Positions 28,634 through 64,000 of a stretch of DNA of 64,000 nt are shown here, piece after piece. The notes under the pieces are model-generated. The model saw only the letters and a list, made by a program, of their open reading frames with translations. It was not told where the DNA came from and ran no database searches. The translations under genes were made by a program, and so were the position numbers. Numbering within the stretch: position 1 is the stretch's first letter; every line of letters starts with the position of its first letter. Where the stretch lies: NCBI GenBank assembly GCA_900095095.1, contig FMBT01000290.1, positions 372,001 to 436,000 of the forward strand. Reading direction: 5' to 3'. The DNA is from Fragilariopsis cylindrus CCMP1102 (lineage: Eukaryota > Bacillariophyta > Bacillariophyceae > Bacillariales > Bacillariaceae).

Positions 28634-30597
28634 ATGACGACGCAGCAACCACCAACCAAAAAGCTTAAGGCAGCCGTCATATTAAAACAACCACAACCAC
28701 CGCTCATATTACGAGCAACAACGGAAGCTGATCATGTATCTTCTCCCTGTATAGCAATATTTGCTGATCTTATCCTTGTAGGTCCAGCTAATGTGTCGCC
28801 AATTAAAAATGGTTGCGTTGTTATTCAATATGGTAAGATTCTGCATGTTCTTCAGAAGATGGAGGACGAAAAAGAATACAATAAATGGGCAGCAAAAGAT
28901 TCTCCTGATGCATATCATCACAGCAAATATTATGTAAAAGTACTAATGCCGGGAATGTGGGATGTACACACTCATTTTATTGGTGCTACATCACGTACAA
29001 AACCGATGATTGAACAACAATGGAATCACTGTTTCGAAGATCGGGCTGTTAAAGTTGGTAGAGATGTATCAAGACTTGGACAAGTATTGAATAGTGGTTT
29101 TACTTCTGTACGTGAAGTCGGTGGCCTAGGCAAGCATCTTAAACTGTTGGTAAAAGAAGGTACATGCCCCGGTCCTATGATTTACCATGCTAATGTGCCA
29201 ATACATATTACGGGTGGACATTGTGATCTCCCTTCTGATGTGCCCTTAAGTTGTTATGGATCTATTTGTACCGTCCAGGATGCTGACGGGGATGGTGCAT
29301 TATTTGGTAAAGGTTCAGATGGAACGTCAGATTGTTTAAAATCAGTCCGACGAAATCTCCGTGCTGGTGCTGATGTTATCAAATTATGTTGTTCTGGTGG
29401 AGTTATGAGTCAAACTTCAGGTTTACCAACAGAACCGCAATTTTCACCTCATGAAATCAAGGTAAGTATACTAAAAAGAAAACGCACGCACGTTCGACCT
29501 TGCGATGCTTTGGCCTGAGCGGTTTTTCAAACTACAAAACTTACGTTTTAACCTTTCTTATTTTGATCGAATCATCGAATTGAATTGAATTGAATTGAAT
29601 TGAATTGAATTGAATTGAATTGAATTGAATTGAATTGAATTTGAATTGAATTGAATTGAATTGAATCGAATCGAATCGAATCGAATTGAATTGAATTGAA
29701 TTGAATTGAATTGAATTGAATTGGACTGAACTGAACTGAACTGAACTGAACTGAACTGAACTGAACTGAACTGAACTGAACTGAACTGAATTGAATTGAA
29801 CTGAACTGAATTGAATTGATTCGAATTTTAATTGAATCGTATTGACTTGAATTGAATTGAATTGAATCGAATCGAATCGAATCGAATCGAATCGAATTGA
29901 ATTGAATTGAAACAACCACATAAATATCTTAAAGACAATGACCGATGAGGCATCACGACACAATGTGTTGGTGTGCGCACATTGTCATTCGGCACAGGGC
30001 ATATTAAATGCTTTAAACAACGGAGTGAAATGTATCGAACACGGAACGTTAGCTGATGAGGAATGTATAAAAGTAATGCTGGAGAAGGATGCTACGTTAG
30101 TTCCAACTAGGTGGGTGATTGAAGACTTAGTGGGTGAAGGTGGAATTGACGGTCCACGTCCGTCCGGCATGTCGGAACTTTCCTGGAAGAAAATGAAAAT
30201 GGTATACGGTGCGTCAACAGTTGCACATAAGGCTGCGATCAAAGCGGGTGTACGGATCGCTGTTGGTTGTGATGTGTTTGTAGCAGAGGGGTATGGTACA
30301 TCGGGAAAAGAATTGAAACATTTAGTCGATTTAGGGATGACTCCAGCACAAGCGATCGAATCTGCTACTGTGAATGGACCGATATGTTTAGGACCAGCAC
30401 GAGCTCCAAAAAGTGGTGCAATACAAGTTGGGTATGATGCCGACCTTATTTGTGTTGATAGTAATCCATTAGACGATGTAACGATTCTTGCGAATCCTGA
30501 TAAAATCCCCATCGTATTTAAAGGAGGTGTTGTCGTCAAGGATACTAGCGACAATACAACGTACTGCCAACCCGCTACGGAAGGATTAAACTGGTAA
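28634..30597 (+). CDS. Imidazolonepropionase-like amidohydrolase (prolidase-like)
   Basis: Exons 28634-29461 and 29935-30597 join across a 473-bp GT-AG intron to give 496 residues. Metal and catalytic positions of the amidohydrolase superfamily are present: HTH in WDVHTHFIG, Lys in VIKLCCSGGV, His in VCAHCHS, His in CIEHGT, and Asp in AVGCDVF. The C-terminal GYDADLICVDSNPLDD is the usual closing strand. The splice joins EIK to TMTDEASRHN, aligning without gap to bacterial imidazolonepropionase-like dipeptidases. These enzymes hydrolyse dipeptides or other amides with Zn; the true substrate is unknown. The intron is largely filled by a pentanucleotide array. The first ATG in frame is 28634; upstream codons are open but start only from GTG. 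Confidence 0.85.
29575..29911. repeat. Pentanucleotide variant array inside an intron
   Basis: About 67 units of 5 bp occur in three spellings (GAATT, GAATC, GAACT) arranged in homogeneous blocks. There is a long GAATT block, a short GAATC block, GAATT again, a block of about 16 GAACT, then mixed units and a final GAATC block. It fills most of the 473-bp intron and ends ~23 bp before the acceptor. Because five is coprime with three, it stays open in several frames. Confidence 0.9.
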
Positions 30598-41153: not shown

Positions 41154-42905
41154 ATGGAAAGGAGCATTGAGAAGATGAAAGGAATCGATGTTTTGAACGA
41201 TGGAAAGAAACCATGTAAAATTCGGAAAATGAATTCCAGTGATGATGATGACAATACTGATCGTCAAGAAACATCATTTAGCCATGATAACATTGATGAT
41301 GATAAGGGAAAAAGTATGATGGCGCCGCAGCAGCAACATAAACAACAACATAAACAACAAGAAAAGAAATATACTACTACTACTGGAATCGTATGCCAAT
41401 TCTGTAATAAAGTCTTTGCATCGAAGAATCTTGTTTTTCGTCATCTGAGAGACGCATCAACAACTTGTGGAAATACAATCATTGAAACTGGACAAAAACT
41501 TCCAGATGCACCGAGTAAAATTAAAAAGCACAAGAAAAAAGAGATAGCAAAAGCACTCCGTACTAGTCGTCGAAGAAAAAAAACTGGTCAGGCAAAACAA
41601 AATATTGATCCTGCGTCAACACTTTGGTTTGGTGACTTACCCTTACCTTACACCAGAATGGGAGGACAATACAAACGTTTACGAGCAGTATTGAAAGAAT
41701 ATTTACCCCGTGATGTGCCACCACCATGGATTAAAAAAGTGATTCGGAAAGGTTATCGGAAGGGAGGGAAAAAAAGTATTGATGAAAAGGAACGTGGTGA
41801 CTATTATGGGTATGCCATCATTGTCTTTCGTGATGCAGAGGAAGCGAAAAATGTGATGACCGCCATGGATGGAACTGTGATTGAATCCAAGATGGTATTT
41901 CCATCGGAACCTTCCATAATTACACCCGATTTTTCTACATTCGTACTGAAAGTGAACAATGTACAACATAATAATAATGATAATGATGATGCAAACTCAT
42001 CAAACAACAACAACAACAACAATTACAACAAGCGTGATTCTGTCACTACTAGCGGTGATCAGGACCCTCCATTGATAGATCAACTACGCCCTCTCTCTAC
42101 CCCTGAATTGCAAAAACGCTGTCAATATATGAAGGATAGATTATTAAAAACAGGTGGGAAAGTGTTTGTACCCCCCGCCAGGGAGACATCCGCAGAAGAT
42201 AATAATAGCGAGGATAATAATGAAAAGAAAAAATCTGAGAATTATACTGCTAGTCAGGAACATGACAAAATGTTAGACTTAGCTTTATCGCTCTACGATG
42301 CCATTGGTCCACGACAAGAACGATTATATAAAGGTCGAGTCGTACCAGAATCTATTCGAGATAATCTTGTACATTTATTAAAAAGTGTCCGTTGGCCAGC
42401 TGAATCACATCGAAAGGGATTAACGTCAGATAATTATTTAGTTCTACAAACGAATATAACTAAGGATCGATTTTATAATGATTTACGTTTGGGTTGTCGG
42501 GAACTGATGGATTGGGTCGATCCAAACTATTACTACAGTGGGATTGCTGTTACAAAGAATTTCGTTGCGTCACCACATATTGATGATCGTGATCAATCAT
42601 TTCAATATGCGGTCTCCCTTGGAGAATTTAATGAGGGAGGAGGTGAACTTTGTGTAGAGGGCAACAACAACAACAACAATGGTGGTGGTGACGATGGCGA
42701 TGGCGATGGCAGAGTTGATTATGTAAATGTTGTTGAGACACGTAACAGGATTGCAAAAGTCGACGGTAGGAATGTTCATTGGGTACGAAGTTGGAATGGT
42801 ACTGCTGATCGTTATAGTCTTATTTTTTATGACACAACTGATAGACATCAAACTGATATCATAAATACGGGTGTCGATGTAACGTTCCTAAAAGAAATAA
42901 AATAA
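41154..42905 (+). CDS. C2H2 finger / RRM-like / 2OG-Fe(II) oxygenase-like fusion protein
   Basis: The 583-residue single-exon protein has three recognisable parts. A classical-looking zinc finger lies at residues 81-108 (CQFCNKVF...FRHLRDASTTC). An RRM-like domain lies at about 158-260, with LWFGDLPLPYTR as the first strand and DYYGYAIIVFRDAEEAKNVM as the aromatic second motif. The C-terminal double-stranded beta-helix (about 430-575) has HIDD in PHIDDRDQSFQYAVSL as the Fe-binding HxD. The distal His is in VHWVRSWNG, and the Arg in DRYSLIFYD is a candidate for 2-oxoglutarate binding. I infer an RNA-associated hydroxylase or demethylase; no known family with this exact order comes to mind. Basic KKHKKKE and RRRKK strings suggest nuclear location. 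Start 41154 is the first ATG. Confidence 0.7.
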   Translation: MERSIEKMKGIDVLNDGKKPCKIRKMNSSDDDDNTDRQETSFSHDNIDDDKGKSMMAPQQQHKQQHKQQEKKYTTTTGIVCQFCNKVFASKNLVFRHLRDASTTCGNTIIETGQKLPDAPSKIKKHKKKEIAKALRTSRRRKKTGQAKQNIDPASTLWFGDLPLPYTRMGGQYKRLRAVLKEYLPRDVPPPWIKKVIRKGYRKGGKKSIDEKERGDYYGYAIIVFRDAEEAKNVMTAMDGTVIESKMVFPSEPSIITPDFSTFVLKVNNVQHNNNDNDDANSSNNNNNNNYNKRDSVTTSGDQDPPLIDQLRPLSTPELQKRCQYMKDRLLKTGGKVFVPPARETSAEDNNSEDNNEKKKSENYTASQEHDKMLDLALSLYDAIGPRQERLYKGRVVPESIRDNLVHLLKSVRWPAESHRKGLTSDNYLVLQTNITKDRFYNDLRLGCRELMDWVDPNYYYSGIAVTKNFVASPHIDDRDQSFQYAVSLGEFNEGGGELCVEGNNNNNNGGGDDGDGDGRVDYVNVVETRNRIAKVDGRNVHWVRSWNGTADRYSLIFYDTTDRHQTDIINTGVDVTFLKEIK

Positions 42906-52235: not shown

Positions 52236-53030
52236 CTTGATTCTAATTTTTATTTTTATTTTTGGGTGTTGTGTAGACGTTGATGTGTTTATTTGAGCCA
52301 ACGTAACAGCTCGATGATTGCTTTTCTTATCTGCATGATTCTAACGCCTCTAAATCCTTTAAAGCGTTCGTCGTACTTGTACAAGATCCCAAGTTGAACT
52401 CGAAACAAACCAGTAGAAAGGAACGAAGGACTTACGTCAATCAAGAAAGTTCAAGAACATAAAAAACTCGAACTTTATTGCTGTTAACGATTACAGCAAA
52501 TCGAAAGAATTATTTTGGCTCATAACCTAGCACTAGCCTCAAATATTATTATTACTAAGCTCAATATTTTCTGCAACAAGTAGTAGTAATAATGCTTCTA
52601 TGAAATGAACACCTAGGAAAAAGAGGAAACAAACTAGGACCCAACCCACACTGTACATAAATTCAAGTTTTTCTATGTCTGTGTTTTCCTCCTACATTAC
52701 AGTAGTAGTGGTATATAATCTATAAGTTGTAAGCTTCATAATAATCTATAATGGAAATGAATATACCAACAGGCTAGTTCCGGATGGATCCAAGCACGTA
52801 GTAAATACTGTGTAATGAGAACTTCCGCATGTAAATAGAGATAAAAAAAAATGATACTCATATGGCACCTCTCTACCGCGAGAAAAGCACAATTAGCTAG
52901 TGAAGTTCCTTTTTTTTATAGGACTTGGAGATCCATGGGGGTCACTCAAACCTTCTAAGCTATCTACCCCACACAAATTTACACATTCCAACTTGATGTG
53001 TGGGCTAGAGGACGTAATATGGTTGTTTAA
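52236..53030. other. Intergenic region, ~800 bp
   Basis: Holds the PsbQ-like promoter at the left. AT-rich, with no gene. The tetranucleotide TTAA at 53027-53030 is the left target copy of the next element. Confidence 0.4.
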
Positions 53031-53583
53031 CAGGATTCAAGCTATAAGGTATTTTGCGCGATTTTTCACTAGTAAAAAACACGCGATAATTTAGAGAAGC
53101 AATTTTCAAAAATAAGATGAAAATGTTTGAAAGCTAATAATAATAAAAGCATTAGTGCAAATCGATACATATTTGGCACATGTACGGATCGAACCAACAT
53201 CCATACATTCAACCGCGGTGGCGTGTGACCAACTGACCCACAAGCAAAGCTACGTTGATTCGTATGAGTACACAGATATTTTAAGTATTTAATTTTTAAA
53301 AAATCGCGCAGGCATACTCTGAACGTGATACTTAGCGCTAACCGCGAATTTTCCTACTATGGCTCTTCCATAATTAATTTTTACCGGCTTGTTACGCTGT
53401 AGGTGCAGCCAATACAAAGAAATTTTCGCGTATTCTAAGTATATAAAAAGACACGTGCTCTTATTCGGAGACGCGCTGTGTCTCAATAGGGGGGTATAAG
53501 TCCAATTTTTGGGGGAGATATGTCCCCCCAAAAAATAGACCCCAAAAAGTGGCTCCCCGTGGGGAGCCATAGCTTGAATCCTG
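53031..53583. mobile_element. Non-autonomous piggyBac-type element, 553 bp, TTAA-flanked
   Basis: It begins CAGGATTCAAGCTAT and ends with the exact complement ATAGCTTGAATCCTG. Both ends abut TTAA (53027-53030 and 53584-53587), the piggyBac target-site signature. Inside the inverted ends the two sides differ. The left side carries AAGG and a subterminal CTAGTAAAAAACACGCG; the right carries a CCCCGTGGGG-centred hairpin and G/C-rich tracts. The same two subterminal types recur at 53824 and 62115. There is no coding capacity. A tRNA-like sequence with A and B boxes lies inside on the minus strand (53186-53240). Confidence 0.78.
53186..53240 (-). other. tRNA-like sequence with pol III A and B boxes
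   Basis: On the minus strand, TGGGTCAGTTGG (A box, 53240-53229) and GGTTCGATCC (B box, 53195-53186) lie 33 nt apart, and TGTG/CACA can pair as a D-stem. The T-stem has two mismatches and no acceptor stem forms, so it is not a working tRNA. It is a decayed tRNA or a tRNA-derived SINE head captured within the element. Confidence 0.5.
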
Positions 53584-53823
53584 TTAACTACCATACAATT
53601 CCAAATCTGTAAAGATTTCATCTAAAGTGAAAATCATGATTTATTGCGATCATTGCGCACCTATGCAGTAAATAGGCAGAAAATTCCATTATTTCAAGAC
53701 GCTCATTCCACATGTAGCAACCATCTTGGTCTAATACAGGGGCTTGCCTAAGAGACAAGGTATTTCCAATGAAGGAATAGAACTAAAGCCCACCATTTGA
53801 ATCATTTGAGTAAAAACTGTCAA
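53584..53823. other. Spacer between two piggyBac-family ends, 240 bp
   Basis: Starts with TTAA of the 553-bp element and ends with TCAA, a likely one-base variant of TTAA, before the next element end. No gene. Confidence 0.5.
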
Positions 53824-54380
53824 CAGGATTCAAGCTATGGCTCTCCACGGGGAGCTACTTTTGGGGGTATTTTTTGTAGGGGCATATTTCCCTCAAAAAT
53901 GGACTTAAACCCCCATATTGAGACACAGCGTGTCTACGAATAAAGATACGTGCTTTCTTACTAAGTAAGTTAAAATAACTCCTGGTGGCTATGTATGGGG
54001 TCCTACTAACCACTCCGGCAACTATTTGGAAGAGCATGTGTTCAAATATAGAGAGTCGAAAAACGTGCCGCACAACCGTCTGTGACTCACACCCAAGATT
54101 CAAAATTTGAAAAATCAGTCAAGTCTTAAAAAAAAAGATGGAGTCAACGCATGGAAAATATGGTTGACGGGGTCAGTCTTGGGAAAATAACTAGCAAAAC
54201 TACTAACAAATTCTTTTTTTAAGATAAATATTTCAAATTTTCATACTAACTAATTACTAGCTTTGAATATTTTAGTCACTAATTCTTTTTGGTTACTTTG
54301 CCACGATTTTCCGTCTAATAATAATATTACAAAACCACACCCAATATAATCAAAAATATTTAGAGTAGAATGGGTATAAA

Positions 54381-56633
54381 ATGCCTCCTAGAAGACGCCC
54401 AATTAGTTTAGAATGGGCCAAATCGTTAGTAGGACTGTCTATGAAGGGCAAGGTCCCTGAGTACTGGTGGCAAGGTTGCAAAGGCTATAGGCTAAATGAT
54501 GGTGTAGTCGTTTCATTTGGTATTGACAAGTTCCAGCTTCCATTTGCTGCAATCTATGATGGTGATGATATCATTGATGCTAATAATGGCATTAGGTACA
54601 GTCAAACACCCCCTTCTGAATGGACTGTAGTTGAGTTGGAAGATGGTCTCGATGAGGGTGGAAGGACAGTCGATCCAATTGAATGGACTGGGGAAAAGGA
54701 GGAGCTGGTAAATACAACTGATGAGGAGTTAGATTTGTTAAGGGACATTGATGGAGAGATTCGATTTGAACAAGTTTTTGATTGGATTCTTCCAAGGTTT
54801 GGTGAAGACAAGAATGAAACTCTATATTCTTGGCAAGCAGCAAGGATGAGGAATTACATGACAAAGAAAGTGGTTCAAGATGGATGGAAACCGAAATACT
54901 ATCAAGGCGATGATGATACGATTCAACCTGATCATGTAGCACGATTCTATGGAACATTGCTCGCTAAAATGCTAACTGGTAGTGGATTGATTAATCAAAT
55001 GTTTTGTACAAGAGAAATCTTCAATGCAGTTCCACCCATACAAGAATCAATGACCAAGAATGCTTTAGAAGATCTAACTAGCTGTCTACACTACAGCCAC
55101 GATTGGGACCCTATGGGAGACCTTGATTGGGATGATATTTATGATGATCCAAAAGTTGTGGCTCCACCACACATAGCAATACATAGAGTGAAACATGGGA
55201 TGTTAGAAGATTGCTATATTCAGGTATGTAATGTATTTGTTGTTATTGTTATTATGTTTTGAATCGATTACTAACCTACCTTCCTTCTTCTTCTTCTTCT
55301 TACAAGAGGTGGCAGTACTGGGTGAACCCATCAAAATGGATTACAACGGATGAGAGCCGCATTGCAGGATGGTATCATAGTGCCATGACAATAGGCCCAG
55401 AGCCCAAACCAATTTGAACTGGAGCTACTCTTCATACTGTCTGCATTACTGAAGGTCCTCTAAGCATCTAAGCTCATACAAGTTGTATGCTAGAGTATTT
55501 GGTGGTAAAACTGATCAAGATATCAACATACATAACAGGCATACTGTTAAGAAGTTGAAGATGGTATCATTGTATGACTTTATGCCTGCAGCATTTAAGC
55601 ATAACTAGGGCATTGTGTTGTAATGGACTCTGCTAAAATATCTGCCTACATGAGTGATGCAATGGCTCAAGTTGGACGAAACAATTGGGGTATCAACATG
55701 GTTGGTACTTGTCAATTGGATCAAACAGGGGCTGGACCACTTGGCAAGGCTGCTGTCAAAGCAAAGGAAGTTGTTATTGGTAGTCATGAGACTCTTATGT
55801 ACCAACACAACACCAAGCCCTTGCTTTGTACTGTTTGGGGTGACAACAACTTTGTCAAGACCCTTTCGAATTTGCATTCTCCATGTGTACTGCTGAGAGG
55901 TGGAATGAGAAGGAAGAAAAGAGACAGACAAACCAAGAGACGAGATAGGGAATTTAGTGATGTTGATTGTTCTATTCAACAAAAGGATTACTGTGAAACC
56001 TATCATTTGATTGATAAAGGGAATGGAAGTGAAGCTAAGTATGATCTGTCTAATGAATTGCATCTACATGGATGGTCCCCCAAGTTAGCAGCCAGGTATT
56101 TCAATATGAATATTAATAATGCCTACAAAATTCATTGTTATCTGTTTAAGAAGCATCATCCAACCAAAGTTGTAATGCCCTTGAAAGAGTGCATACATAA
56201 TTTGACCCATTCACTACTTCAACGAGGTGCTTCTATGAGGAAGAGAGGGTATGGAGCTACACCCAAAGCGACCAAGGATATTACTACTTCATCTTCTGTT
56301 GATGGAAGAAAAGTTAGATCTGATTCAGTTAGACAACCATTTACCTCCCCTACTGCAACAGTAATTGGTACACCTCAAACACCAGTGTCTGGTATTGGTG
56401 CTCGGGCTCTCCAGTATCGACAAGTTGCTTTTAAACAACAAAAGCAACTCCAGCCTGGAAGGAATCATATATCGGTTCCAGTGGTTGTTAAGGGAAATAA
56501 GGCTACATCTTATTGCAAGTACAAGAAATGTCCTGGTAAGAATTCTGGAGCAAAGAGAGCAAGAACCTATAAGTCAAAGTATGTATGTGAGGAGTGTAGT
56601 TTGGAGAAGGGAATCGATTTTTTGGCTATGTAA
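54381..56633 (+). pseudogene. PiggyBac-type DDD transposase, decayed, with an intron
   Basis: The first exon (54381-55223) encodes the N-terminal domain (MPPRRRPISLEWAKSLVG, DWILPRFGEDKNETLY, VPPIQESMTKNALEDLTSC). A GT-AG intron at 55224-55306 joins DCYIQ to RWQYWVNPSKWITTDESRIA, which carries the first catalytic Asp. Between about 55416 and 55620 the frame is disrupted roughly three times, although the protein similarity continues. From 55623 the frame is open to 56633: MDSAKISAYMSDAMAQ (second Asp), GDNNFVKTLSNLHSP, a candidate third Asp in HLIDKGNG, HLHGWSPKLAARYFNMN, and a C-terminal Cys-rich zinc-binding tail (CKYKKCPGKNSG...CEECS). It would cut and paste DNA at TTAA but is inactive as it stands. 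Confidence 0.82.
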
Positions 56634-57017
56634 TTCAACCAAGGATGTGGATGGAAATGTGGTAGTGGTTGATTGTCATACAGCATACCATGTGGAAAAG
56701 AAATTATATACATCTCCACCACCAGTGCTTACCACTGAAAGTAGTGTTGTTTCTGATCTAACAAATGAATAGATACATAACCATGTGATTCCAGGTGACG
56801 TCCGTATCATCAATTATGATACCAAACAACCAGACCTTATCAGCCATGAGTATGATAGTCCTACCCCAGAGCACATCATCGACTACTCTGATGCCATTTG
56901 AGAGAAATTGAAACTGGCTGGTATCCATGATATTCATAATTTAATTTAATTTAATTTGACTCATTGATTTACTATGTGATATATACATATAAATATATGT
57001 ATACTTTACTAATCTAA

Positions 57018-57059
57018 CAAAAAAAACAAAAGTAGATAATATCTACTTTTGTTTTTTTG
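57018..57059. terminator. A-rich/T-rich inverted repeat after the transposase
   Basis: An arm CAAAAGTAGAT preceded by A8 and its complement ATCTACTTTTG followed by T7 form a ~19-bp stem with an AAT loop. It could mark a transcript end or be the remnant of a foldback element. Confidence 0.4.
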
Positions 57060-57060
57060 T

Positions 57061-57669
57061 CCGTACGATGGATGCTGTTCTGCGCAGTGTTTGCGTCGTT
57101 GTCATTGTCGTTGTAGGATCACGAAAAATATGGACGCGAAGGGGTCCCTATTGGGTATAGACACGGCCGACACCATTTTTGCTTCGAACACCATCTCCTT
57201 CTTACTACAAAGGGGCTGGAAGCCCCTATCTATATCCATTAAGGACTCCTGTGAAACGGCGTTTAAATCCATTTGATATTTTATGCCAAATCGATGGTTC
57301 TCTACCACGAAAAATATGGACGCAAATCACGAAAAATCGGTGATATGGGCCGACGCCGACACCGACTCCATTTTTCTACTACAAAAATACAGCACCCTAG
57401 CACAATGCAAAAGCTTCTCAAAAAATACCTCTGTCCCAAACTACTAGTTTAAAAAACGGCTTCCTCATGAACAGCAGTGGAGACCGAGACCAATCTTGAC
57501 ATTTCCGTCATTCTGAAGGACGGCAAAAAAGTTGACCTTAAATATTAAGGACTGGCTGACTGCCAAAGCTCCACTGTTTGAGCTTGCCCTGCAAGATGAG
57601 TTTGAATGTTGAATTGCCCTGCAAGATGAGTTTGAATGTTGAAATGAAATTAGGGGCTATCTTAAATTA
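57061..57669. other. Non-coding region with CACGAAAAATATGGACGC repeats
   Basis: CACGAAAAATATGGACGC occurs at about 57120 and 57306, with related words around them (CGAAAAATCGG, GGCCGACACC, CGACACCGACTCC). A 30-bp unit is tandemly duplicated at 57584-57643. This looks like old mobile-element or satellite debris; no family is recognised. Confidence 0.45.
57584..57643. repeat. Tandem duplication of a 30-bp unit
   Basis: Two copies of a unit beginning TTGCCCTGCAAGATGAG lie head to tail, just outside the 3' end of the secreted-protein gene, with no visible difference. Confidence 0.85.
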
Positions 57670-58764
57670 TTAAAGGGAGCAACCCTGTAGCTTGAATTTG
57701 GGCCCACCCTCATCATCTATGATGCTAGCTTTAACCATGAGTTTTTCCAATTCGCAAGCTTCAAGGATTTTGTTGAAGCGAACGGTATTTTTATCAGCAC
57801 CATAGCGAGCCTTTGTTTGACAGGGAAAACAAGTTTTTGAGCCTAAGATAGAGCATGTTTCAAAACTAGCCAGCGATCCCACTTGGTCGCCATTGTTGTC
57901 GTCGATAGAATATTCTAGTTCTTGCAGACGGATAGCCGCATCAATACATCGGTTGTAATCGGAAGCCGAGCTAATGTTCGCAACTTGACCACCAGTTGGA
58001 ATGGAGCCACACCCGTCTGAAAACTGTTGATGACGTCGCCTCTTATTAAGAATGTCTTCACTCCAAATTCCAATAGATTCGGCAAAATCCGTGATGATTC
58101 CATCACTATCTTGACGAATTACTCCATTCGGGACAAAAGTGGATTTCAGCCATGTGCTAGTGACTGTCAAAAAGGCGACCCGGTTCAGTTTTGAATGCTC
58201 AACACCCGACAGGCGATTACTATTAGCAAAGGCGCCAACTAGTTTCTTGATATCGGGAAACGTCAAATCGTCGGCGGCAGTTAAATCGGCCAAGCCCATG
58301 TCGGCGGCAATGGACAGAAATCGCGGTTCTCCAGCCAAAGCATTGATAGCTTGACGTGAATCCACGGCGTAAATGGCATACCGATTGGCGTGTTCTTCGC
58401 ATCCGGTAGGAACAATGGCCGGATTAACTGTCTTCAGCTCTTTTTCTCCTTTGTACTCTCTCCAGGTTGGATTCTTGATATCCAGAAATGATTTGTATCC
58501 ACGGACGAGGGCCTTTCCAAGGAAAGTGGCATTCACGCTGGATGCATCATCATCCGAGGGCCGGTAGTCTAAATTTCTTCGAAGCTCAAATCCCTCTTCC
58601 AATGTTCCCGACACAGCAAGAAGCACGTATGATATCTTCTCGCCATTGCCGATGCCTCTTGCACATGACGGAGTTTTATCGATTTGGCAAACCTCGTCGT
58701 CGTGAATCGCTAATACCGCCGAGGAACAGCATAATACGAGAATTATCAAGTATAATGTTACCAT
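57670..58764 (-). CDS. Unrecognised secreted cysteine-containing protein
   Basis: The 364-residue product begins with a clean signal peptide (MVTLYLIILVLCCSSAVLA) and has no other membrane segment. The mature part has about eight Cys, including CFPC in SKTCFPCQTKARYG near residue 310. Hydrophilic blocks include TGCEEHANRYAIYAVDSRQA, FANSNRLSGVEHSKLNRVAF and YNRCIDAAIRLQELEYS. I do not recognise a family. It has none of the homopolymer runs of the host genes here and is visibly richer in G+C. It lies inside the candidate piggyBac segment, with its promoter facing that of the permease across ~1 kb. Confidence 0.7.
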   Translation of the reverse strand: MVTLYLIILVLCCSSAVLAIHDDEVCQIDKTPSCARGIGNGEKISYVLLAVSGTLEEGFELRRNLDYRPSDDDASSVNATFLGKALVRGYKSFLDIKNPTWREYKGEKELKTVNPAIVPTGCEEHANRYAIYAVDSRQAINALAGEPRFLSIAADMGLADLTAADDLTFPDIKKLVGAFANSNRLSGVEHSKLNRVAFLTVTSTWLKSTFVPNGVIRQDSDGIITDFAESIGIWSEDILNKRRRHQQFSDGCGSIPTGGQVANISSASDYNRCIDAAIRLQELEYSIDDNNGDQVGSLASFETCSILGSKTCFPCQTKARYGADKNTVRFNKILEACELEKLMVKASIIDDEGGPKFKLQGCSL

Positions 58765-59803
58765 AGTTTCTTGACGACTTCATAAAATGACGCTGGATTC
58801 GTCATGCCTTACATTGTGGATAATGATTCTAGTGCTGTCGAAGATCCCTTTCACAATCACGAACTGCGACAATCACTTCGAAATCTAGCGTACCACACTG
58901 CAGTAAATATGAGTCATTCCCGAAATAGGATTTTGATATTAATAAACGAACTGTATTTCCACTACGTTTTTAGTGAGTTTATGTGTATGAGGGACAGAAT
59001 ATAGAAGAGCTACTCTAGTCACTCTTCTATTATCATCAATTCCGCGATCTTTTCAGGAGCAGCCGATCAAAAATATTTTAACGCGTGTTAGGGGGGATAA
59101 TATTATGCCCCGAAAACGAAACAGCTTAATCAAAATTAAAAATTAAAAAATATTAGAAACTAAAAACAAATATTTGGAAGTTCTCAGTTGTCTCGTGCGA
59201 TATTGCAAGCATGCTTATGCGTTTCCTCTCCAACGCGTTTGGCATTTTCTGCATGTTGCCGAACTTTGACAAAGAGCTAGGCGATCAGGAAACTATACGC
59301 CGTAGAGACACTTTTCTAAGGTATTAACAAAGATAACGATAAAAACGAATATTATGATTTCTTTCTAAAGAGTGCAATAACAACTTCTTAAAACACCAGA
59401 TGTTTATTAGGGAACCTGGTCCAACTTCCGGTATTCTCTTTTTCTTTTTTCAGAACAAGAATATGCCGACAGATGGAGCGAAGAATCGTGCCAGACTGTA
59501 ACTCACTGCTCACTTCACTTCAGCGAAGATCCAGGAACAAGAATTTTCAGATGCCGAATATTCACGAAGAGGATAGCGAACATGTTTTGTTCTTCACATT
59601 ATATCCCAAGGTTTTCGGAAATATCATAGCGACGCTATTCCAGGTTGTATTGAGTATGTAACATCACGTGTATTGATCACAAAGTAATTTTTCAAGATAA
59701 AGTATCCATAATTTTTCGTTTTTTAAGAATCATCAAACGATATTATTTATTACGAATCAGTTTCTTTACTCCAGTATAACTTGGATAGAGATCATTCCTT
59801 ACT
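58765..59803. other. Divergent intergenic region, ~1 kb
   Basis: Lies between the secreted-protein gene and the permease. Small open frames (58804-59004, 59473-59661) lack coding character. Contains a GTGTTAGGGGGGATAATA word near 59085. No element ends are recognised. Confidence 0.4.
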
Positions 59804-61660
59804 ATGGGCATTATTGATACCTGGAAGACCGACGGGCCCAAGGCAGCGTTGCTTGGCGAGTATGACTGGAAATTCCTGTGCACCCCAAGATTTCCCTTTT
59901 GCAGCAAGGGAAAGAAGTACGACCCTCCGCCTTTCTACGCTTACGACGAGAATCTAAGCTTGTCCGTAAGCTTGATGATTGGTCTCCAGCACGCTCTCAC
60001 AATGAGTACGAATATCATTACTCCTGCCCTCCTCGTCTTCAATGTTGTCATGAGTTATTTTCCTGAAGATTACGATCCTTCTCTTGGAGAAGAGCAGGCA
60101 GCCAATAGAGAGAGAGCGCTAGATGTTGCACAATATCTTGTCAGCGCTTCGTTGATATGCTCTGGACTAGGAACGTTCATGCAAGTGAGCGCCATCAAAA
60201 TTCCTTTCACCAACTACCAGCTAGGAACAGGCATTCTCAGCACCATGGGAACCGCCAATCAATACAACGCCATTTTCCCCGTGATCTTGTTTGACATCAT
60301 GTCTGGTGGGTACGACATCGAGGAAGCATGGGGAAAACTACTTGGAACTATCATGCTTTGCGTGTGGCTCGAGGCCTTGATTGCTTTTATTCCACAGAAG
60401 ATCCTCAAGAGAGTGTTTCCTCCATATGTTCTTGGGGTCACTGTCATGCTCATTGGTGTGCAGTTGACAGGCGCAGGAATTAAATTTTGGGGCGGCGGAG
60501 TTGGGTGCTCAAGAAACCCTAGCGCCGACAACCCGTGCCCTGGAAATGGCGAAGTGATGCTGGGTTACGGATCTGGTCCATATGTTGCAATGGGATTCAC
60601 CGTGTTCCTCATCTTCCTGGTCGTTGAGATCTTCGGAAGCCCATTTGTGCGCAACACCATGGTTATCTGGGGTCTTCTTGGAGGCTATGCTATCGCTGCA
60701 TTATCCTCTTACGAGGGCGACCGGTTTGTCACGACAGACCGTATGAACAGCAGCCCTGTATTTACCTTCCTATGGGTAGAAACATTCCCGATCGGTATAC
60801 ATGGCCCTGCTATTATTCCGATGCTCTTTGCCTTCTTGGTAACTGCTATGGAGACATACGGGGACGTCACAGCTACCGAGCATGCCTCCCGTCTACGTCC
60901 TTCAGGAGAAGACCACGCCAAGAGAATTCAAGGCGGTTTGCTTGGAGATGCCGTAGCAACCTTTTTCGCGGCTCTTGGAACGTCTCCGCCAAATACCACC
61001 CTCTCCCAAAACAACGGTATTGTTGCTCTGACAAGATGCGCTTCTACTTCTGCAGGTTACTCTTGCGGATTCTGGTTGCTGACTTTTGGAGTTATCGCAA
61101 AAATTGGAGCATGGATTTTATCCATTCCAAACTGTGTGTTGGGAGGAGCTCTTACCTTTTTGTTTGCAAACATTATTGTTTCGGGCATCAAGCTGATCGG
61201 CTTCGATCGTATTGATAGACGCACTCATTACATCGTCGCAGCATCACTTGCACTTGGAGTTGGAACTGCGCTCGTGCCGGCCTTTTCCTCACCTGGTATT
61301 GGTGGAGCGGCCGAGCGGCCGAATCAGTGGTGGCCATACGACCCTGATATGTCGGCAGCTCTAGACTCGTTTCGCGTAGGTCTTATGATTGCAGTCAACA
61401 CTCCATACTTCATTGGTAGTATCGCAGCCATTATCCTCAATCTCGTGATCCCAATGGATCTCATCGATGATGCTGAGCTCGAAATTGAAGCACAGTGGAA
61501 AAACAGTGAAGAATTACCTCTCTCTGATCCAGTAAAAGAAAAAGAAGAGAAGAGTCCCGAACCCAATGAGGTAGACGCTCGATTGAGTGGCGGGACGAGC
61601 TGCATTGCACAAGACAACGATGCCGATATGGAGTCATATACAGATACCTCATGTGCCTAG
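59804..61660 (+). CDS. NCS2/NAT-family urate/xanthine-type permease
   Basis: The 618-residue single-exon membrane protein has about 12-14 hydrophobic segments. Family marks are GLQHALTMSTNIITPALLVF in the first helix (the conserved QH), PYVLGVTVMLIGVQLTGAG, ETYGDVTATEHASRL in place of the ExxGD region, and SQNNGIVALTRCAS, the NAT signature region with QN and TR. Members of nucleobase-cation symporter family 2 import xanthine, uric acid, uracil or ascorbate; the eukaryotic UapA-like form of the signature favours purines. The cytosolic tail is acidic. Codons are G+C-richer than in surrounding host genes and no homopolymers occur. It lies within the candidate piggyBac segment. Confidence 0.9.
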   Translation: MGIIDTWKTDGPKAALLGEYDWKFLCTPRFPFCSKGKKYDPPPFYAYDENLSLSVSLMIGLQHALTMSTNIITPALLVFNVVMSYFPEDYDPSLGEEQAANRERALDVAQYLVSASLICSGLGTFMQVSAIKIPFTNYQLGTGILSTMGTANQYNAIFPVILFDIMSGGYDIEEAWGKLLGTIMLCVWLEALIAFIPQKILKRVFPPYVLGVTVMLIGVQLTGAGIKFWGGGVGCSRNPSADNPCPGNGEVMLGYGSGPYVAMGFTVFLIFLVVEIFGSPFVRNTMVIWGLLGGYAIAALSSYEGDRFVTTDRMNSSPVFTFLWVETFPIGIHGPAIIPMLFAFLVTAMETYGDVTATEHASRLRPSGEDHAKRIQGGLLGDAVATFFAALGTSPPNTTLSQNNGIVALTRCASTSAGYSCGFWLLTFGVIAKIGAWILSIPNCVLGGALTFLFANIIVSGIKLIGFDRIDRRTHYIVAASLALGVGTALVPAFSSPGIGGAAERPNQWWPYDPDMSAALDSFRVGLMIAVNTPYFIGSIAAIILNLVIPMDLIDDAELEIEAQWKNSEELPLSDPVKEKEEKSPEPNEVDARLSGGTSCIAQDNDADMESYTDTSCA

Positions 61661-61678
61661 CCATCGATCGGTTCCTTC

Positions 61679-61798
61679 TAGTGCGACAGGCTAGTGTATC
61701 GAGCGCCTGCTGTTCGAAATGCGATACACAATGGTAAGTAGTGCGACAGGCTAGTGTATCGAGCGCCTGCTGTTCGAAATGCGATACACATTGGTTCC
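61679..61798. repeat. 60-bp tandem duplication containing a stem-loop
   Basis: Two nearly identical 60-bp units lie 18 bp past the permease stop. Each has GTGTATCG and CGATACAC as perfect 8-bp arms around a 20-nt loop containing GTTCGAAATG. If transcribed it would form two hairpins in the 3' untranslated region. Confidence 0.85.
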
Positions 61799-62665
61799 TC
61801 CGGTGTCATTCAAGTGGCTATGCAAATTATAAACACATTTTGATATAGTAAAGAAGTACTAATAGAGTGTGCCCGTTTGTTAAATATCCGTGTCAAGAAT
61901 CTCAAGATGGGAGGGCGTCTTGAAAATTCAGTTTGAGATTTCATCGGGTGGTCTCAATCTAATAGGGTGAACGCTTTTGTCTTCCACTAGCTTTCCACCT
62001 CTGAATATTAGCATTATTTTTTAAGTTAACTTTTTTGTTTTAGAAAATTAGCGCGTGTTTTTACTAGCAATTTTTTCTATAAAAAGACGAAAAAATCCTT
62101 ATAGCTTGAATCCTATTAAGTATGTCGCTGATCATGTATGTATGTATGCATGTCTTCGTAGGAAAATTATCGTTCTGATTATCAATGTCACCAAGACTAG
62201 GATTGATAATTTCTAATTTTGCCTCAAAAGCAGAAGAGATAATGGCAAGGGCAAGTTCCAAAAAAAGTTGTGTCGTCGTCGTTTTGTCGTCAAGAAAAAT
62301 CAAAAAAAAACAATTCGGGGAGGCAAAAAGGGGCGGGGACGACCGACGGATTTAGCTAGAATTGTGAAATAAGAAGCGAAAGTGATTTTCTCGCCTCGCT
62401 CGCGCGACGGCAAGCGCAAAGTTGGATTTCTTTTCAACAGCGGTACTATTGCATCATAGCGTTGTTTTCACCTTCTCCATTTTGTTTCACGTACAACACA
62501 CGTTAAGAAGTCAAAACTACCAGACTCGCTAGTTGTTTCGTTAGGGGGTGGCTTTATCGATACTAACGCTAAAGCAGCGCTAAGCACAGAACGCTCTTCC
62601 TTTTATCAACAAGCTTGAACAATAACAAATAAATTAAATTAATAGTAATATAGTAATATACTACG
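61799..62665. other. Intergenic region with the right piggyBac-family end
   Basis: Contains the subterminal and terminal sequence of the piggyBac-type end (62043-62115) followed by TTAA at 62116. Beyond it is the promoter region of the V-ATPase accessory-like gene. No other gene. Confidence 0.5.
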
Positions 62666-63730
62666 ATGATGATGATGAAGACTTGTACATTCGTATTAGC
62701 ATTTGCGACACTATTGTCGTCTGCTATTGCAGCACCTGCTGTTGTGTGGCAAAGTAGTAGTACCGCCAAAATTAGTAGTAGTAATGCACGTTCTCTTCAT
62801 TCTTCTGAAGACATTCATGCATCCGAATTGATGAAGAATGTCCTTACTATTTCTTCATCTGAAGCGCCTGCTTTAAGTGCTGTAATTTTCCTTATTGGAA
62901 AAGGTGATGATGGATCAGAACAATTATCGGAACTTGCTTCTGGTGGAAAATTACCATTAACATTTGCTAAGTATAATGATGCCACCGGTGTGTATCATTC
63001 AGTATCCGGTGTGGAAAGTACCGGTTCAATAGTGAAAGTAGCCGGTAACGCGATTACTACTGAAGGAAATAATAATAATAACAAGAATAAGAATAACCGT
63101 CGTGTCCTTGAGGTTACTTTGAATGAATTCAATAGTAAACTAACTTCATTGGACACGGCTGCTGTTGTTGATCCAGTTGCAGAAGTTGAAATTGATAGTA
63201 ATGGTACACCATCCTCCACTACATCAACATCCACATCAACCAATAAGAGAGTTACCAAGCGAGCACGTGCACTAGCACAAGCTGATATTTACATTGTGAA
63301 TGTGAATCCAACAACTGATGCATCCACTCAAATTGATAATTCTATTGTCCAAGCAATCGAACACAAGAATGTTGGTGCGGTTGTACTTGGTGGTATCCGA
63401 TCGATTGAAGAAGTGAAGCACGAGCGGTTCTTAACGAATCAACGTCGGATGACTGTGATGGAATCGAATGGAAATAAAATTATGGACAATCGCCGGCGTC
63501 GATTAGAAGAAGATGGCGATGCGAATGATGATGCTGCACAAGCTGATAATGCCAATAATGATGACTTATCTGGCGTATACTACGTTGCGATGACACCTAA
63601 TATCTTAGCTGGCTTATTATTTACACTTCTTTTTCTTGTTGTTACCTATACCGGTATCTCCTGTATGGGAGATATTCAAGGTGGTGATTGCTTTACAGAC
63701 AAGTACCCATCTCTTGGTCGTGAAGCTTAA
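62666..63730 (+). CDS. V-ATPase accessory-subunit-like type I membrane protein
   Basis: The 354-residue protein starts with a signal peptide (TCTFVLAFATLLSSAIAAPA), has a lumenal domain with Asn and Ser/Thr inserts, and a dibasic RVTKRAR stretch near 195 that could be processed. It ends with one membrane helix in YYVAMTPNILAGLLFTLLFL followed by GISCMGDIQ and a short cytosolic tail. The tyrosine/MTPNILAGLL helix and downstream GIS..GDIQ resemble the conserved transmembrane region of V-ATPase S1/Ac45, Voa1 and related Big1 proteins, which assist assembly of the Vo sector. The lumenal part is too diverged to confirm this. Single exon. Confidence 0.6.
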   Translation: MMMMKTCTFVLAFATLLSSAIAAPAVVWQSSSTAKISSSNARSLHSSEDIHASELMKNVLTISSSEAPALSAVIFLIGKGDDGSEQLSELASGGKLPLTFAKYNDATGVYHSVSGVESTGSIVKVAGNAITTEGNNNNNKNKNNRRVLEVTLNEFNSKLTSLDTAAVVDPVAEVEIDSNGTPSSTTSTSTSTNKRVTKRARALAQADIYIVNVNPTTDASTQIDNSIVQAIEHKNVGAVVLGGIRSIEEVKHERFLTNQRRMTVMESNGNKIMDNRRRRLEEDGDANDDAAQADNANNDDLSGVYYVAMTPNILAGLLFTLLFLVVTYTGISCMGDIQGGDCFTDKYPSLGREA

Positions 63731-64000
63731 AACAAAAAAAGGAAAGAAAAAGAAAGTACAAGACAAAGACATACATCAATCATTCCAAAAAAGAATCTTT
63801 TACCTTAGTACTCTCTCTATCATCATTTAGCATTTAATTAATAAATAATACCTTAAACCAAATAACTCCTGGCAATTAATTAAGTAGAAATATAATATAA
63901 AAACTCAGAGGTTTTTTTCAACTATTGTAGTTTATTTCACTCATATTTATATAATTCTAAAAACCTTCAACAGTACTCGATATATTTCTGTGCTTGCACC

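Follow-up and report, generated by a model that had tools for sequence, protein, structure and literature searches.

The window analysed here is a stretch of 64,000 nucleotides from Fragilariopsis cylindrus CCMP1102 (C91, nt 372001–436000; genome of 67.9 Mb in 818 contigs). Towards its right side lies a unit (nt 53824–62115) with the two ends of one TTAA-targeting transposon family, and between them a decayed transposase gene and two intact ORFs unrelated to transposition. The terminal motif, AGGATTCAAGCTAT, was found by pattern search at four positions in the window (nt 53032 and 53825, forward strand; nt 53569 and 62101, reverse strand), all of them exact, compared to a mean of 0.46 in shuffled sequences with up to two mismatches allowed. 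These four termini delimit two units, the 53824–62115 unit and a 0.56 kb non-autonomous element of the same family (nt 53027–53587), which has 15 terminal inverted-repeat bases, is flanked by TTAA at both ends, and is located 232 bp upstream of the TCAA that precedes the larger unit. The latter has 14 identical bases at both ends and differs at the outermost base. Genome-wide, CTTGAATSCTGTTAA, the terminus together with TTAA, occurs 45 times and the reversed pattern 0 times. Several family copies have TTAA at both ends; in the window copy, direct reading gives TCAA on the left (nt 53820–53823, presumably a decayed target-site copy) and TTAA on the right (nt 62116–62119), just as the original prediction had it. 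The end pair and its orientation agree with those of an ordinary family copy, and the sequence observation from which this study started, a unit with two correctly oriented ends, is confirmed and clearly exceeds chance expectation.

Among 32 loci that match the left (B-type) end with its adjoining 5' noncoding DNA (nt 53822–54380, forward strand), the ten best show 77–79% identity, the match starting two bases before nt 53824, inside the target site. This part is followed on the same strand by a piggyBac-type transposase gene and the start of the 3' noncoding part (nt 54381–56791; 86–88% identity to the ten best matching loci). A transposase gene is therefore present between the ends, as predicted, but is not intact: it carries an in-frame stop at nt 55415 (bases checked) and frame shifts (seen by tblastn). 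A presumed intron was recognised by eye at about nt 55224–55306, and about 0.1 kb of coding DNA is absent near nt 54521 relative to L075, a full copy on C476 that served as reference. The two transposase ORFs of the window copy have no match in Pfam, and the copy is assigned to piggyBac through its DNA homology with L075. When three ORFs from elsewhere in the family were compared with the piggyBac model (PF13843, DDE_Tnp_1_7), the 3' ORF of L075 came out over the cut-off (E 2.4e-12) and the ORF of L089 below it (E 0.0019), while that of L018 showed no match.

The window transposase has 37 private changes in 1134 comparable sites (3.3%, a strict lower count), distributed 13/12/12 by codon position, and this is the highest number among the 20 sequences (19 distinct copies) compared. 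The set comprised the window, L075, L077 and 17 of the 29 other loci with an A-type end; L041 and L077 are one and the same copy on C504, and L040 is the L075 copy. L036 and L037, being near-identical to L035, were omitted, nine more loci were unused, and for several sequences the private counts are lowered by the presence of close relatives in the set. The transposase has decayed neutrally, without visible constraint, and the element is dead.

The right (A-type) end, of the autonomous type (nt 61955–62115, forward strand), is part of a 165 bp piece (nt 61955–62119) that shows 73–85% identity to the corresponding 3' ends elsewhere in the family. What lies between this piece and nt 56791 is foreign to the family. 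Aligned with L075, nt 53822–56789 correspond to L075 30–765 and 869–3099 (extending to nt 56791 with L035–L038), and nt 61957–62122 to L075 3395–3560 (against several other copies the match begins at nt 61954 or 61955). At the gap, 5.16 kb (nt 56792–61954) have replaced about 295 bp of 3' noncoding DNA. Apart from this loss and the 0.1 kb missing near nt 54521, nt 53822–56791 and 61955–62119 together make up a family copy.

In the genome searches, 40 of 111 candidate places were scored for the left (B) end and 40 of 50 for the right (A) end, and scored ends were paired by strand within 15 kb. Among these there are at least 22 end pairs, the window's included; 18 of them measure 3,360–3,551 bp, which sets the family norm at about 3.5 kb, and one measures 3,986 bp. 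Eighteen of the 40 scored left ends are unpaired. Three pairs are over-long, those of the window (8,304 bp), C205 (9,721 bp) and C504 (10,701 bp). The extra DNA of C504 interrupts the transposase gene and holds an RVT_2 reverse transcriptase between identical direct repeats of 267 bp, as of LTRs; it is a young nested retrotransposon, presumably Copia-type, and a later insertion. In C205 the extra 6.2 kb lie inside the transposase gene, as judged by their edges (L075 1797–1930). Over-long pairs in this family thus need not mean cargo. C809 and C568 were considered together with C504 as independent composite jumps and rejected as duplicates, since all three have the same flanking DNA (no difference between C809 and C568 over 3,264 bp, and 98.3% identity of both to C504).

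Whether the two pieces of the window copy derive from one element was addressed with sites that separate L035 and L038 from nine other copies (14 of the 29 other A-end loci aligned; L036, L037 and L039 aligned but uncounted, and L061, which has the GTGAT state at the left junction, unaligned). At nt 56601–56791, directly left of the gap, the window sides with L035/L038 at five sites to none, and at nt 61949–62119 at three to none with one other, the right end holding only four informative sites. Further left the picture is mixed, at two sites to two in nt 56201–56600, and in nt 55598–56200 the other group is favoured (four to seven, two other). One 'other' site at nt 56798, beyond the homologous part, was dropped, and the two groups were chosen when the similarity to L035/L038 was already known. 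Best identities also differ between the pieces, being to L058 and L052 (88%) at nt 55263–56797 and to L035–L037 (85%) at nt 61955–62119. The agreement of subfamily markers on both sides of the gap suggests that both ends are probably parts of one autonomous-type copy, in line with the original prediction, although the sites are few; those at nt 55598–56200 would make this copy itself a mosaic, or else the two pieces are of different origin. That the two ends come from two different short elements is less likely. The neighbouring 0.56 kb element and the 165 bp right piece have in common only stretches of 39 bp (82%) and 18 bp.

The left edge of the insert is a patchwork. It begins with a fragment of a different multi-copy coding repeat (nt 56792–56946, forward strand), and nt 56792–56959 or parts of them match C83, C303, C324, C639 and others at 73–83% identity. 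A related multi-copy coding repeat at L087 1–1101 is open over 367 codons and has no Pfam match over the cut-off. Next come two fragments of another dispersed repeat (nt 56947–57120), of which nt 56947–57042 (91%) and nt 57055–57120 (94%) have counterparts in C651 that are separated there by about 1.2 kb; in the window they are joined by a perfect 19 bp inverted repeat with a one-base spacer (nt 57020–57058; fold z −8.7). None of the 39 other places listed (40 of 83 candidates scored) spans the first fragment and the C651-type pieces beyond nt 56959. Further into the insert there are a 30 bp tandem duplication (nt 57584–57643), an 88 bp dispersed-repeat fragment between the two divergent genes (nt 59093–59180, forward strand; five other genome places at 77–89%) and, just 3' of the permease stop, a 60 bp unit present twice (nt 61679–61795, forward strand; 98% in the tandem-repeat analysis). 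The last was found at no other place in the genome, and was rejected as a structured RNA as it folds no better than shuffled sequences (z 1.02 and 0.44). Elsewhere in the window, a tandem array of GAATT with about 66 units occupies nt 29577–29911.

No target-site copy of the insert is evident, since the longest word common to the two junction regions has five bases. A nested transposon with ends of its own was rejected: inverted pairs of at least 18 bases joining about nt 56800 and about nt 61900 were not reported, and one A+T-rich inverted pair (nt 57524–57545 with nt 62016–62037, 82%) lies off both insert edges. The identities of the repeat fragments, which run from 73% to 94%, suggest that the insert may be of several ages. 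Dating by these fragments was tried, but the divergence from the best match is 6 to 17% in the pieces at the left edge and 11% at nt 59093–59180, and set against the 3.3% private changes of the element these values leave the order of events unfixed.

Both genes within the insert are open throughout, so the original prediction of two intact non-transposon genes between the ends holds. The first, on the reverse strand (nt 57670–58764), is an ORF of 364 aa with a start that resembles a signal peptide by eye. It has no match in Pfam, NCBIfam or PDB, finds only itself in its own genome, and gave no pattern match in IMG/VR, a scan that reaches close relatives only. The second (nt 59804–61660, forward strand) is a single ORF of 618 aa encoding a UapA-like purine permease of the NAT/NCS2 family. 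The Xan_ur_permease domain is over its curated cut-off (PF00860, E 4.3e-53), the NCS2 superfamily model TIGR00801 is also above cut-off, and there are solved eukaryotic relatives: residues 14–552, with the QNNG stretch aligned, match PDB structures of a 'Uric acid-xanthine permease' (best E 3.4e-95), which we take to be UapA. A viral or bacterial source was considered and not supported, as one pattern match of the permease in IMG/VR and seven in GTDB genomes were not confirmed by tblastn; these scans reach close relatives only, so that horizontal transfer may still apply.

The hand counts of G+C offered earlier as a sign that the two genes differ from their neighbourhood are exact (30 of 60 at nt 60061–60120 in the permease, 22 of 60 at nt 42361–42420 in a host gene). 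Among the window ORFs of at least 200 aa, the two transposase ORFs excluded, the permease and the 364-aa ORF rank first and second in GC3 (0.501, z 2.80; 0.441, z 1.95) against 22 others, which are predicted and not verified genes. One ORF of the window resembles PsbQ (Pfam E 0.0018, below cut-off). While the difference in composition is real, it fails as a mark of the element. A genome search with PF00860 recovered, besides the window gene, C288, C451, C126, C99, C374 and C88, and the nearest relative found is a 5'-truncated permease pseudogene on C88 (nt 86248–87199, equivalent to L076 1749–2700) with stops in its second stretch. No element homology was seen in the 4 kb read around it, an element end being 27 kb away, and yet its G+C (0.477) is close to that of the permease (0.492); the value for the C451 paralog stretch is 0.428. 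High G+C goes with the permease lineage. The paralogs on C288, C451 and C126 match the permease in separate stretches of 43–50% identity, introns being presumed between them. Over 145 codons of the stop-free stretch, permease and C88 pseudogene differ by dN 0.106 and dS 2.34 (NG86). Synonymous sites are saturated, which indicates an old lineage, and we infer that it is older than the decay of the element and has been strongly constrained for most of that time.

The explanation we hold to be somewhat more probable than all others together is that a rearrangement split a dead element and brought in two functioning genes, the ends around them being relics. An autonomous piggyBac-type element of 3.5 kb would have landed at a TTAA, and its transposase would then have decayed. 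Later, the 3' noncoding DNA may have suffered a break that was repaired with other DNA, by template switching or by microhomology-mediated joining, an error-prone process that would have introduced both the mosaic of repeat fragments and a 4 kb block with two host genes, the secreted-type orphan and the UapA-like permease. Both are proposed to work as host genes. In favour of such repair we count the make-up of the left edge, where three or more pieces derived from repeats are chained together along with an inverted repeat; a patchwork of this kind is typical of template switching. The explanation as a whole also draws on the complementary pieces and the agreeing subfamily sites beside the gap, the neutral decay of the transposase next to two intact ORFs, the old and constrained permease lineage, and the nested insertion in C504. 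That only one copy was involved, the order of events and the repair mechanism are all matters that we infer. Against this explanation we count that no target-site copy is evident, that the insert may be of several ages, that the informative sites are few and some of them favour the other group, and that an insert acquired before the last jump would give the same anatomy. Even so, a split, dead element around two intact genes accounts for the data (family anatomy on both sides, a dead transposase, intact ORFs, a mosaic left junction and no second copy found) with fewer assumptions than cargo and spread.

Acquisition and spread of the permease by the element, as originally suggested, is possible but unsupported. 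Searches of the 67.9 Mb genome found no second copy of the insert; the transposase is dead, the nearest relative of the permease shows no element homology in the 4 kb read around it, and there is no sign that the element ever carried either gene anywhere. In such a scenario the element would have acquired the block with both genes at another site, perhaps when the gap left by excision was faultily repaired, and would then have moved here as a unit of 8.3 kb. In its favour, both ends are correctly oriented and bordered by TTAA on the right and by a variant differing in one base on the left, faulty gap repair might be expected to exchange an internal stretch for other DNA, and the GC3 of the two genes is unusual for the window. 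Weighed against the single copy, the dead transposase, a permease G+C that recurs in a relative with no element beside it, and the failure to find a likely donor copy of either gene in the genome, this capture is unlikely, though the strongest competitor to the rearrangement. That a working element took up the permease and the orphan gene whole, moved both here and then died, with the genes staying under selection, is doubtful. Should the block have been carried, this would be one of the rare instances in nature in which whole genes were moved by a cut-and-paste element. Among the open-access papers listed in literature searches, none has a title concerning algal piggyBac elements that carry genes, which does not mean that there are no such papers.

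It is distinctly improbable that two family copies flank resident genes, one on the left without its right-hand portion and one on the right reduced to its final 165 bp. The family is indeed common (first-look candidates: 111 for the B end, at least 50 for the A end), its copies or ends are occasionally close neighbours (C54, C567, C809), and the differing best identities of the two pieces and the other-group sites at nt 55598–56200 would fit two origins. Nevertheless, the remnants complement each other without overlapping and lack only about 295 bp between them, and the subfamily sites beside the gap agree. Moreover, given at least 50 A-end candidates in 67.9 Mb, the chance of one falling within 5.16 kb downstream in the same orientation is about 0.2%, assuming an even spread. 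An assembly error that joined unrelated sequence inside a repeat is very improbable: although the assembly is in 818 contigs and keeps near-identical duplicates (C809, C568, C504), the left-junction mosaic is common as a unit to no other listed place (40 of 83 candidates scored), and the sequence past the unit's right side (nt 62110–63990) matches only itself in the genome.

The rearrangement of a dead element is our preferred reading, and it means that an old transposon copy can enclose intact genes without any sign of having moved them; genes between matching ends should not, for that reason alone, be called cargo. Compared to the piggyBac superfamily (PF13843), the family has the TTAA flanks, seen as target-site duplications in several copies, terminal inverted repeats of about 15 bp, a DDE_Tnp_1_7 match in one better copy and short non-autonomous relatives, while the window copy differs in being dead and in holding a 5.16 kb insert. 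The 14 identical bases at its ends fall within the 12–19 bp given for piggyBac terminal inverted repeats in a passage of PMC2872659, but its termini, CAG[G/C]ATTC, lack the CC[C/T]T motif given in that same passage. Pack-TYPE elements, including Pack-MULEs, which stand for transduplication, likewise hold host sequence between transposon ends. The present unit is unlike them in having whole intact ORFs instead of fragments, a dead transposase of its own, only one copy found and no donor copy found; in its own genome the 364-aa gene matches only itself, while searches with the permease yielded just the old, truncated relative on C88 and the paralogs with 43–50% identity. Teratorn, described in PMC6431247 as a piggyBac-like element fused with a fish herpesvirus, also has a large foreign load between piggyBac-type ends. 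As far as that description goes, the window unit differs in having no recognised viral genes, no repeated copies found, and a length of only 8.3 kb. The permease itself is comparable to the UapA-type NAT permeases, which it matches over residues 14–552 and in the QNNG stretch, and is distinguished from them by being a single ORF in what is probably an algal host.
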